From Gammaproteobacteria bacterium (GTDB taxonomy: Bacteria > Pseudomonadota > Gammaproteobacteria > Ga0077536), in the NCBI GenBank assembly GCA_016209015.1, contig JACQWY010000035.1, positions 1-64,000 on the forward strand: a stretch of DNA of 64,000 nucleotides. Direction: 5' to 3'. A program made the translations under genes and the position numbers. The notes below the pieces were generated by a model, which made no database searches, had not been told where the DNA came from, and saw only the letters and a list, made by a program, of their open reading frames with translations. Positions within the stretch are counted from its first letter, which is position 1. The number at the start of each line of letters is the position of its first letter. Positions 703 to 43,280 of this stretch are shown here, piece by piece.

Positions 703-845
703 GTCGCCGTGGCGCAGGCGAGGGCCCAGCCGGTGACCCGCGGCAGATGCAGTGAACCGCGGGCCCGCACTGCGTGGAGATCGAACGGACGTCGAAGTCA
801 TCCCAGCGCCGTCGCCCTCGCGCAGGCGAGGGCCCAGCCGTTCAG
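703..845 (+). repeat. REP doublet (703-738 variant; 811-845), direct repeat of 14-146
   Basis: Shared spacer GAACGGACGTCGAAgTCAtCCCAGCGCC upstream of the second REP in both copies. Confidence 0.85.
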
Positions 846-1033
846 CCCCGGCGCCGAGGTCGAACCGCGCGGCCAGCGCAGAAGACGAGCGCGGTGCGGA
901 ACGGAGCTCTCGAAAGTCCGAGGTTCACTGCGCGTGCCGTGGGTCACCGACTGGGCCCTCGCCTGCGCGAGGGCGACGAAGATCAGCCGAGGCGGAATGC
1001 CTCGACTGACCCCACAGTCTGGAGAAGATCCGT
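811..1033 (+). repeat. Long REPIN copy with right-hand arm ending CCCCACAGTCTGGAGAAG
   Basis: ~220 bp homologous in inverted orientation to 40545-40763; translated repeats match (GTELSKVRGSLRVPWVTDWALACARAT vs GTERSKVRGSLRVPWVTDWTLACARAT). Confidence 0.9.
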
Positions 1034-1186
1034 CCCCCTTTTCCGATTCCTCGGACGCGAGTCGGTCGCGCCAGGAAATAAATCCGTCACCTTTTCCCCG
1101 CCCCGTCACCTTTCCCCCGGCTCCCGATGATCCGTCCCGCATTGCTCATGGCGTTGGACGGACACGGTGAGAGGTTTTTTAGCTCT

Positions 1187-1317
1187 TCTCCGAACTGCGG
1201 GACTGTGCCTCGGTCCACTGCGGCGCATATTTCCCACTCGTCGCCCTCGCCTGCGCGAGGGCGACGAAGATCAGCCGAGGCGGAATGCCTCGACTGACGC
1301 CGCAGTCGGGAGAAGAA
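1187..1317 (+). repeat. Short MITE-like element with inverted termini and a single REP core
   Basis: Starts CTCTTCTCCGAACTGCGG, ends CCGCAGTCGGGAGAAGA; both arms match those of 40545-40821. Confidence 0.75.
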
Positions 1318-1351
1318 AAAAAAGCGCGGAGCCCTTGAAGGCATCCGCGCT
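1313..1351 (-). terminator. Rho-independent terminator for the PEP-CTERM gene
   Basis: Minus strand AGCGCGGA-TGCCTTCAAGGGC-TCCGCGCT followed by a run of T (polyA on + at 1316-1323). Confidence 0.9.
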
Positions 1352-29874: not shown

Positions 29875-30076
29875 GGCGCTTCGACGCCGGCGGCCGGAAG
29901 CTCAGTGCCCGTCGCCCTCGCGCAGGCGAGGGCACAGTCGGTGACCTTCGGCGGGTGCAGTGAGCCTCGGGTGACGTGCCGAGGACGGTCGCTGCGGCCA
30001 AGCCGTGGCGCCGGCCCCGGGGCTCGACGAAATCTCCGAGGTTGAACGACTGGGCCCTCGCCTACGCGAGGGCGAC
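29875..30076. repeat. REPIN copy 1 (REPs 29911-29946 + and 30048-30076 -)
   Basis: Inverted REP cores around spacer CGGCGGGTGCAGTGAGCCTCGGGTGACGTGCCGAGGACGGTCGCTGC. Confidence 0.9.
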
Positions 30077-30240
30077 GCGGTGGGGCGGTCGATGCTTCGG
30101 ATTCGGATCCGCGACGCAGTGGGGTGGTCGATGCTTCGGATTCGCGACGCGCGACGCGACGCGGTGCGGTGGCCGATGCTTCGGATCCGGATCCGCGACA
30201 CGTGGGGTGGCCGATGCTTCGACGTCGGCGGCCGGAAACT
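30077..30240 (+). repeat. Imperfect ~35-40 bp minisatellite (TGGGGTGGTCGATGCTTCGGATTCGGATCCGCGACGCGG)
   Basis: About four diverged consecutive units between the two REPIN copies. Confidence 0.85.
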
Positions 30241-30414
30241 CAATGCCCGTCGCCCTCGCGCAGGCGAGGGCCCAGTCGGTGACCTTCGGCGGGTGCAGTG
30301 AGCCTCGGGTGAGGTGCCGAGGACGGTCGCTGCTGCCGAGCCGTGGCGCCGGCCCCGGGGCTCGACGCAATCTCCGAGGTTCAACGACTGGGCCCTCGCC
30401 TGCGCGAGGGCGAC
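30241..30414. repeat. REPIN copy 2 (REPs 30249-30284 + and 30386-30414 -)
   Basis: Near-identical to REPIN copy 1. Confidence 0.9.
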
Positions 30415-30610
30415 GTGGTGGGAGGGTCGATGCTTCGGCTTCGGATCCGCGACGCGGTGGGGTGGCCGATGCTTCGGATTCGAATGCGCGGCGCGGGTGG
30501 GACGATCAATACTTCGAAGGCACGACGTGGTGGTTCGGCCGATGTTTCGGATTCGGATGCGCGACGCGGTGGGGTCGCGGATGCTTCGGATCCGGATCCG
30601 CGATGCGCCG
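30415..30610 (+). repeat. Second minisatellite block, same ~35-40 bp unit
   Basis: About five further units (GGTCGATGCTTCGGCTTCGGATCCGCGACGCGG etc.). Confidence 0.85.
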
Positions 30611-40271: not shown

Positions 40272-40544
40272 AACGCCATCGAGCGGAGGAGGCCCGTCCG
40301 GCGAGGAAATAACGTCCCTCACAGGGCCACGCAACCACCGAAGCTCGAACGCCGAATCGTAGGCGCTTGAACTCGGGCCCCCTTGAACCCGGCACCTCAC
40401 GATTCGGGCCGACTCCATCGCAACGTCCGTCAGGTCCCAGCGTCCAGCTTTGAGCTTTAAAGAATCGCCATAATCAATTGTTATTGCGTAACTTTAGCTC
40501 CAAGTTAAAGTAGATTCTAGGAATCGCACACGACACGAAAAAGG

Positions 40545-40821
40545 TTCTTCTCCAGACTGTGGGGTCAGTCGACGCATTCCGCCTCGGCTAATACCTGTCG
40601 CCCTCGCGCAGGCGAGGGTCCAGTCGGTGACCCACGGCACGCGCAGTGAACCTCGGACTTTCGAGCGCTCCGTTCCGCACTGCGCTCGTCTTCTGCGCCG
40701 GCCCAGTCGTTCAGCCTCGGCGCCGAGGCTGAACGACTGGGCCCTCGCCTGCGCGAGGGCGACACGTGGGAAATACGCGCCGCGGTGTGCCGAGGAACAG
40801 CCCCACAGATCGGAGAAGAGC
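40545..40821. repeat. Full-length MITE-like element containing REPIN (REPs 40597-40632, 40735-40763)
   Basis: Inverted termini TTCTTCTCCAGACTGTGGGG / CCCCACAGATCGGAGAAGAGC; flanked by CACGAAAAAGG / CACGAAAAAAGG. Confidence 0.8.
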
Positions 40822-40825
40822 CACG

Positions 40826-40850
40826 AAAAAAGGCCGCATTGCGGCCCTTT
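40826..40850 (-). terminator. Rho-independent terminator of the thiolase/apc-like operon
   Basis: Minus strand AAGGGCCGCAATGCGGCC followed by TTTTTT. Confidence 0.85.
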
Positions 40851-40870: not shown

Positions 40871-42052
40871 TCAGTTGCTGCGATACATCGTCACGACGCA
40901 CGCGCCACCGAGGCCGAGATTGTGCTGGAGCGCGATACGCGCGCCTTCCACCTGGCGCTTGTCGGCATTGCCGCGGAGCTGCTGGACGAGCTCCGTGCAC
41001 TGGGCGAGACCCGTCGCCCCCAGCGGGTGGCCCTTGCTCAACAGGCCACCGGAGGGATTCGTGACGACCCGGCCGCCGTAGGTGTTGTCGCCCTCGCAGA
41101 CGAACTTCTCGGCACCGCCCTCCGGGCAGAGGCCGAGCGCCTCATAGCTGATGAGCTCGTTCTGCGCGAAGCAGTCGTGGAGCTCGACGACGTTGACGTC
41201 CTCGGGGTCGACGCCCGACTTCGCGTACACCGCTTTCGAGGCGTCGAGCGCCATGTCGAAACCGACGACCTTGCGCATGTCGCCGGATTCGAAGCTGCTC
41301 GCGGTGTCCGTCGTCATCGCCTGGGCGGCGATCCAGACCTTCGTGCTGAGGCCGTGGCGCTTCGCGAAGTCTTCCGAGCACAGCACCGCCGCCGCGGCGC
41401 CGCAGGTCGGCGGGCAGGCCATCAGGCGGGTCATGACGCCCGGCATGATCGTCGGACTCGCGAGCACGTCGTCCTCGCTCACCACGTTGCGGAACACCGC
41501 CAGCGGATTGTTCGCGGCGTGCCGGCTCGCCTTGGCGCGGATTTTCGCGAACGTGGAGAGCTTCGTGCCGTACTTCTGCATGTGGTCCATACCCGCACCC
41601 GCGAAGAAGCGGATCGCGAGCGGAATGTCGCGGTTCGGGATGAGCTTGTCGCACTCCTCGTCGAACTTTTCGAGCGGCGACGGGCGGTCGGTGTAGACAT
41701 TGCCGAGCGCGCCGGGGCGCATCTGCTCGAAACCGACGGCGAGCGCGCAATCGACGACGCCCGCCTCGATGGCCTGACGGGCCAGGAACAGCGCCGTCGA
41801 GCCCGTCGAGCAGTTGTTGTTCACGTTGACGATCGGAATGCCGCTCAGGCCGACCTCGTACAGCACGCGCTGGCCGGCGGTCGAATCGCCGTACACGTAG
41901 CCCGCGTAGGCCTGTTGGATCTCGTCGTAGCCGATCCCGGCGTCGGCGAGCGCAGCGCGGACCGCGACGCTGCCCATGACGGGATAGGGCTCGTTCGCGC
42001 CCGGCTTTGTGAATGGAATCATGCCGACACCGGCGACGATGACCTTGCTCAT
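40871..42052 (-). CDS. SCP-x-type thiolase / acetyl-CoA acetyltransferase
   Basis: NNNCSTGSTALFLARQAIEAG; NVVELHDCFAQNELISYEALG; GGLLSKGHPLGATGLAQ. Confidence 0.94.
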   Translation of the reverse strand: MSKVIVAGVGMIPFTKPGANEPYPVMGSVAVRAALADAGIGYDEIQQAYAGYVYGDSTAGQRVLYEVGLSGIPIVNVNNNCSTGSTALFLARQAIEAGVVDCALAVGFEQMRPGALGNVYTDRPSPLEKFDEECDKLIPNRDIPLAIRFFAGAGMDHMQKYGTKLSTFAKIRAKASRHAANNPLAVFRNVVSEDDVLASPTIMPGVMTRLMACPPTCGAAAAVLCSEDFAKRHGLSTKVWIAAQAMTTDTASSFESGDMRKVVGFDMALDASKAVYAKSGVDPEDVNVVELHDCFAQNELISYEALGLCPEGGAEKFVCEGDNTYGGRVVTNPSGGLLSKGHPLGATGLAQCTELVQQLRGNADKRQVEGARIALQHNLGLGGACVVTMYRSN

Positions 42053-42212
42053 GCGTTGTCTCCTGATCCGAATGCGGTTGGAAGTGCCTGCGCGCCGCGA
42101 CGTGCGTCCGTCCGAACCGCTGGAATACAGCGGCGGCGACAGGGCGGCGAGAGGGAAATCAGCGCGGCCCGCCGGGTCTGGGCGTCGGGGCGGGCGTCGA
42201 AATTCGCTGCGC

Positions 42213-43280
42213 CTAGCATACTCGAAAAGCCGGGGCCCGGTCCCCCGCCGGGGCGCCCTCACCCCCACCCGTTTGAGGTGGTGCGAGGCCGCACGGCGCG
42301 AACGCGCGGACGACCTCGTCCGCATCGAGATCCCGCCCGATCACGACGAGCACCGAGCGCCGCGGCTCGTACGGACGCCACAGTGCCGCGGTATTCGCCT
42401 GGACGAGCCCTTGCACGCCCTGCACCACGACGCGCGCCTTCAGGCCCTCGATCGCGAGCACGCCTTTCAGCCGCCACAGCCGTTCGCCGTAGCGCGCCTG
42501 CAGGCTCGCGAGCCCGCGATTCAGCGCGACGCCGTCGAGCGGTCTCGCGGCGCGCAAGGCGACCGAGCCGACGCCGACCGTATGCGCCGCCGGCGCGCTC
42601 CGGAGCGTGACGTCCGTCGGCTCGGGCACGAACTCCACCCGATCGAACTGGTAACCGCGGAGCGCGAGCAGCTTCTCGAAGATCTCGCCCCAGGGCGCAC
42701 GCGGCACGTCGAGCACGGCGACGTGTGCCGCCCGGTTCAGAGCGCCGAGCCGGGCACATCGGGCGTCGAGCGCGCCGCGGTCCACGAGGTCCGGTTTCGT
42801 GACGAGAATGGCATCCGCATAACCGAGCTGCGCGCCGGCCTCGACCGCCTCCTCCAGGGTCCGCTCGCCGTTGAGCGCGTCGAACAGCGCGACGACGCCA
42901 TCGAGGTGGAACTTCGTCAGGAGCGCCGTCTCGGCGAGGAAGGTGCGAACGATGGGCCCCGGATCCGCGAGCCCGCTCGTCTCGAGCAGCACATGATCGA
43001 ACGCGACGCGGCCGGCCTCGCGCGCGGCGGCGAGCTCGCCGAGCGCGCGGGCGAGATCGCCGCGCACCGTGCAGCAGACGCAGCCGTTCGAGAGCTGGAC
43101 GAGCGTCTCGTCGGGCGTCTCGAGCAGCAGCTCGGCATCGACGTTCACCGCGCCGAACTCGTTCTCGATGACCGCAAAGCGCCGGCCGTGCGCTTCACCG
43201 AGGAGGCGGTTGACGAGCGTGGTCTTGCCCGCGCCGAGGAAGCCGGTCAGCACCGTGACAGGCACGGTGTGCCGCATCAT
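42213..43280 (-). CDS. CobW/COG0523-family GTPase (putative metallochaperone)
   Basis: [39 protein letters not shown] (CxCC). Confidence 0.95.

Follow-up and report, generated by a model that had tools for sequence, protein, structure and literature searches.

The 280-bp repeat at positions 40543-40822 of the window (the 64,000-nucleotide stretch analysed here, taken from the genome of a bacterium of the Gammaproteobacteria) is probably a non-autonomous MITE, once mobilized by a DDE transposase that was most likely of ISL3 type, inserted into the U-tract of an intrinsic terminator and carrying a REPIN; the carrier now looks inactive. A chemotaxis-receptor gene flanks the repeat on one side and a convergent thiolase gene (minus strand, 40871-42325, recognized by Pfam) on the other, and all the ORFs of at least 80 aa that overlap the repeat extend out into flanking DNA. 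The original prediction had placed a transposed element at 40545-40821, between near-direct repeats of 11 and 12 nucleotides. Flanking direct repeats are indeed present, but the true duplication is the perfect 8-mer ACGAAAAA; the extra C and GG of the longer repeats are partly the first GG and last C of the element itself, and the boundaries are corrected to those given above (Table 1). The predicted inverted termini and inverted REP cores were both recovered, the former as two 22-nt arms that are 82% complementary, the latter as two 46-nt arms that are 87% complementary and 83 nt apart. The inner arms of the window copy form a perfect 44-bp palindrome, which is found in this copy only, its left arm being diverged in the 30 other copies; it is probably the product of a template switch. 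Positions 40806-40821 (CAGATCGGAGAAGAGC) resemble an Illumina adapter (AGATCGGAAGAGC), a resemblance taken as coincidence since the stretch fits the family consensus and sits inside the contig.

Table 1. Parts of the element at 40543-40822 and related copies in the window (TSD, target duplication; TIR, terminal inverted repeat).
Feature	Position	Strand	Observation
MITE copy, complete, 280 bp	40543..40822	+	one of 31 full copies aligned from end to end, which are on average 88% identical pairwise
Left TSD, ACGAAAAA	40535..40542	.	perfect 8-bp match to 40823-40830, the length that scores best across the family
Right TSD, ACGAAAAA	40823..40830	.	terminator U-tract side
Left TIR, GGTTCTTCTCCAGACTGTGGGG	40543..40564	+	
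Right TIR (reverse complement GGCTCTTCTCCGATCTGTGGGG)	40801..40822	-	
REP 1 and extension: tag TGTC, stem GCCCTCGC/GCGAGGGT, loop GCAG, tail CCA	40593..40638	+	inverted arm; exact core match; 96.5% identity among copies
REPIN loop, holding the left arm of the 44-bp palindrome (40700-40743)	40639..40721	.	
REP 2, inverted partner of REP 1	40722..40767	-	97.8% identity among copies
Intrinsic-terminator hairpin GGCCGCAATGCGGCC-TTTTTTCGT of the minus-strand thiolase gene	40830..40849	-	element inserted in its U-tract
Second MITE copy, right-truncated (left TIR and REPIN)	811..1031	-	
139-bp variant, same termini, one REP hairpin instead of the REPIN	1181..1319	-	

The 280-bp unit is present in about 50 copies in the genome (5.7 Mb, 65 contigs), a number that is a lower bound because many copies lie at contig ends. 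Searching with the TIR pattern, three mismatches being tolerated, gave 60 + 70 matches in this genome and none with the reversed control; a set of 35 further genomes from the same taxonomic family gave two matches, both isolated ends. A match in genome G003 (L090), a single end located in DNA that looks coding, was put down to chance. The REP core matches 15 times in the window (0.34 expected) and 209 times in the genome at up to three mismatches, several of these REPs lying outside any TIR pair. Since the REP is also found, at weaker similarity, in at least two genomes of the taxonomic family, the REP family seems to be wider than the TIR family. A long interior pattern used as a genome-wide probe returned noise only. 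Plasmids and phages gave no match to the element, and a single IMG/VR match, located inside a long ORF resembling a phage tape-measure protein, was discarded as fortuitous. As to base composition, the window has a G+C content of 57% in its first half (1-32000) and of 67-68% in its second half (32001-64000), a shift that may mark acquired DNA.

The ends of the copies bear the mark of transposition. The family termini read GGYTCTTCTCC-N3-CTGYGGGG, and copies at dozens of unrelated loci stop at the same GG...CC ends, with no homology extending past them. Two-ended elements were catalogued (49 in all, 133-562 bp long) and, after two doubtful ones had been dropped, 47 were tested. On both sides, the A/T fraction of the flank lies between 0.66 and 0.96 over the first eight positions and is 0.21-0.43 beyond them. 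The left-hand 8-mer of an element agrees with its right-hand one at a z-score of 5.6, above all of 2000 shuffles, and the z-score is highest at 8 bp. Three elements have identical left and right 8-mers (0.28 expected) and ten have 8-mers with at most one mismatch (1.35 expected). Duplications are imperfect in many copies, the perfect ones being those of the window copy, C57:268939 (TGAAAATA) and C36:84337. The sharp termini shared by the copies and the matching 8-bp A/T-rich flanks therefore bear out the prediction that the element, non-autonomous and with a REPIN as its core, was transposed. An A/T-rich 8-bp duplication is the signature expected of a DDE transposase making staggered cuts 8 bp apart.

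The sites hit are to a large extent terminators. For the window copy, the site is the U-tract of the hairpin located downstream of the thiolase stop codon, and this hairpin retains a full U-tract because the tract was duplicated on insertion. A terminator-like hairpin adjoins the element, with its T-tract reading into it, in 24 of the 46 elements with a testable flank. When only flanks with a T-tract toward the element are considered, a hairpin is present in 24 of 33, in contrast to 44 of 305 control T-tracts, but as the control spanned genic as well as intergenic DNA, some of this enrichment is accounted for by counter-selection of insertions within genes. In a G+C-rich genome, the A/T-rich octamers suitable as targets would largely be the U-tracts of intrinsic terminators. 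Insertion there would probably be cheap for the host, as the hairpin and one full U-tract stay in place.

Carrier and cargo have aged unequally. Across 31 aligned copies, identity is 96.5% for REP1 and 97.8% for REP2, as against 83-84% for the TIRs and about 83-84% for the subterminal parts; the copies were chosen by their recognizable TIRs, so that selection of the sample works against this difference. The MITE/REPIN junctions are common to the 31 copies, suggesting that MITE and REPIN were amplified as one composite unit. The MITE probably captured a CGTC-type REPIN first, both then being amplified together, so that the REPIN would have travelled on the MITE. The ends of the carrier are decaying and no transposase gene was found for it, hence it now looks inactive, while the near invariance of the REPs inside this decaying carrier suggests that they are kept for a separate reason. 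The two inverted REPs come together in one hairpin, as in a REPIN. Their architecture, TGTC/CGTC-GCCCTCGC-GCAG-GCGAGGGC-CCA, fits the CGTC superfamily in its tag, 8-9 bp stem, 4-5 nt loop and CCA tail. The first two stem pairs, however, are G-C then C-G and not A-T, as they almost invariably are in that superfamily, and the REP is for this reason best described as CGTC-like and outside the four published families.

The strength of the hairpin, the near invariance of the REPs and their location 3' of genes could all be accommodated if the repeats persisted as functional terminators or mRNA-stabilizing hairpins and spread via recombination without transposing. The RNA of the element folds as a single long hairpin whichever strand is considered (z about -10.75 and -8.7). 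However, two-sided changes occur in 3 of 59 pairs, so little covariation that I claim conservation of the sequence and not selection of an RNA fold, and duplications of fixed length in A/T-rich DNA, together with sharp ends, require a transposition step. Spread by recombination alone therefore seems highly improbable. No Rfam family scored above threshold, the weak miRNA matches merely reflecting the palindromes.

Which enzyme performed the transposition step was approached through the ends. According to the favoured scheme, a DDE transposase acting in trans would recognize the termini and insert the element into 8-bp A/T-rich targets, which become duplicated. Sequence comparison makes an ISL3-type transposase the probable mobilizer. 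The family of the enzyme is not identified by duplication length alone, since transposases of the IS256, IS66 and ISAs1 types also generate 8-bp target duplications; one of these might have moved the MITE, all the more so as the autonomous partner is missing from an assembly in which many contig ends fall within element copies. This alternative appears rather unlikely, given that both the tip, GGYTCTTC, and the A/T-rich 8-bp target agree with those of ISL3 elements from sister genera. The latter have GGSTCTTC tips, ends of sequence GGGTCTTC/GGCTCTTC and perfect 8-bp A/T-rich duplications (GATATTTC at L112, CGAAAAAC at L110), their likeness to the MITE ends being confined to the 8-nt tip and a G-rich block, with modest overall alignment scores. 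Eight bp is also the classical length of ISL3 duplications, e.g. TTCTTTTT, and the published CLJ-ISL3 ends (GGGTATCC...) differ from those of the MITE (PMC7643977). A transposase with the ends of the MITE was found neither in the genome itself, where ISL3 and Y1 types were sought in a fragmented assembly, nor in an exact-pattern scan of GTDB. No ISL3 transposase was found in this genome: its sole PF01610 match is a stretch of a 391-aa desaturase-like ORF (L070:3651-4826, contig C57). Most genomes of the family contain one such match, and a Lysobacteraceae MAG (G051) contains one weak match, in a 395-aa frame.

Alternatively, the repeat could be nothing more than a REPIN that a RAYT has moved; the outer inverted repeats would then represent an extended palindrome or else a palindromic site preferred as target. 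The outer palindromes of REP dimers in Halothiobacillus and Anabaena are read as targets in a published study (PMC3733652), five Y1 transposase genes are present in the genome, and the window contains solo REPINs without MITE ends (29905-30080 and 30242-30421). However, the 8-bp duplications are located outside the outer repeats, HUH/Y1 enzymes generating no target duplication, and this REP was found within 1 kb of none of the five Y1 genes, the nearest lying 1023 bp from the C39 gene match; a RAYT is therefore disfavoured as the mobilizer. What the outer repeats enclose elsewhere also argues against this reading, which I consider quite improbable. The same termini surround REPINs with other subterminal sequences as well as single-REP cores (the 139-bp variant in the window and C55:32825), and in one other genome, the Lysobacteraceae MAG, which belongs to another genus, they surround an unrelated palindromic core, again adjoining terminators, as at L143, where the duplication CAAAAAAA lies beside a terminator. 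Some cores are broken up by a further palindrome (motif GGGGACACGACAC), nested in MITE copies L071, L079, L082 and L084. Many palindromes of this kind surround the Y1 transposase gene of contig C39 (L051:7268-8913), and their motif is consistent with GGGGWSAS, the one reported for tyrosine transposases associated with TIRs.

Copies of the MITE also occur side by side. Adjacent units separated by a short A/T spacer are arranged head to tail in 13 of 13 pairs, none being inverted (L011, L012, L030, L037, L040, L051 and others). Insertion of a circle junction and recombination are candidate causes of this order. Recent local duplication was rejected as the origin of the arrays: neighbours are about 84-96% identical, random pairs giving 86.4 +/- 4.0, and different variants stand next to each other in arrays L004 and L009. 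Insertion beside a resident copy is thus likelier than local duplication.

REPINs, CGTC REPs, MITEs and ISL3 insertion sequences have each been described already. ISL3 insertion sequences and the MITEs derived from them share with the present element the GGxTCTTC tip and the A/T-rich 8-bp target duplication (PMC7643977); unlike the insertion sequences, the window MITE is a 280-bp unit without a transposase gene but with a REPIN core, and the inner half of its TIRs differs from the sister-genus ends. CGTC REPs, as presented in PMC3733652, have the same (C/T)GTC tag, 8-bp stem, 4-nt loop, CCA tail and head-to-head dimers, and no adjacent dedicated transposase; the REPs described here differ in their first two stem pairs, almost invariably A-T in the published ones, and in being embedded in a MITE with target duplications. 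The same paper reports REP dimers inside an outer inverted repeat that is not found without REPs, namely CGTC-1 of H. neapolitanus and GTAG-15 of A. variabilis; these palindromes are interpreted there as targets, with no duplication described in the passages concerned, and their outer sequences are unrelated to those of the MITE. The claim that the family is undescribed thus holds for its sequence, unmatched in the open-licence literature, but not for REP dimers within outer palindromes, which that paper had reported in 2013. The REPINs of P. fluorescens resemble the present ones in being inverted REP doublets that form one long hairpin, in their high copy number and in some tandem clusters, but are associated with RAYTs (PMC3116915), whereas here no RAYT is flanked by these REPs and a subset of the REPINs rides in a MITE. 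In its size and structure the element resembles the bacterial MITEs RUP, NEMIS, ERIC and Nezha, which, according to PMC3733652, are non-coding, 70-300 bp long, with TIRs of 15-30 bp and strong secondary structure. It differs from these MITEs by its targeting of U-tracts and its REPIN core. I know of no bacterial MITE, and the open-licence literature yielded none, that combines terminator U-tract targeting with a REPIN core. The present analysis adds evidence that the outer palindrome around a REP dimer is itself a transposon with duplications, together with the targeting of terminator U-tracts, the diversity of the cores that a single set of ends encloses and a carrier that has aged differently from its cargo.

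PMC3733652 leaves open the way in which CGTC-type REPs move. Of the more than 200 such REPs of this genome, a subset is housed in a mobile element of a second kind, which is better understood and leaves a clear signature on insertion; in each of these copies, the conservation of the REP can be set against that of its carrier. The 8-bp duplication offers a simple reason why U-tracts tolerate insertions, since the terminator is left whole. A tentative hypothesis is that CGTC REPs, which have no known dedicated transposase, spread, at least in part, as the cargo of DDE-mobilized MITEs landing in terminator U-tracts, that the REPIN outlasts its dead carrier by selection or homogenization, and that MITE ends swap palindromic cores between lineages. 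A REPIN borne by a MITE suggests how REP hairpins may travel around a genome.
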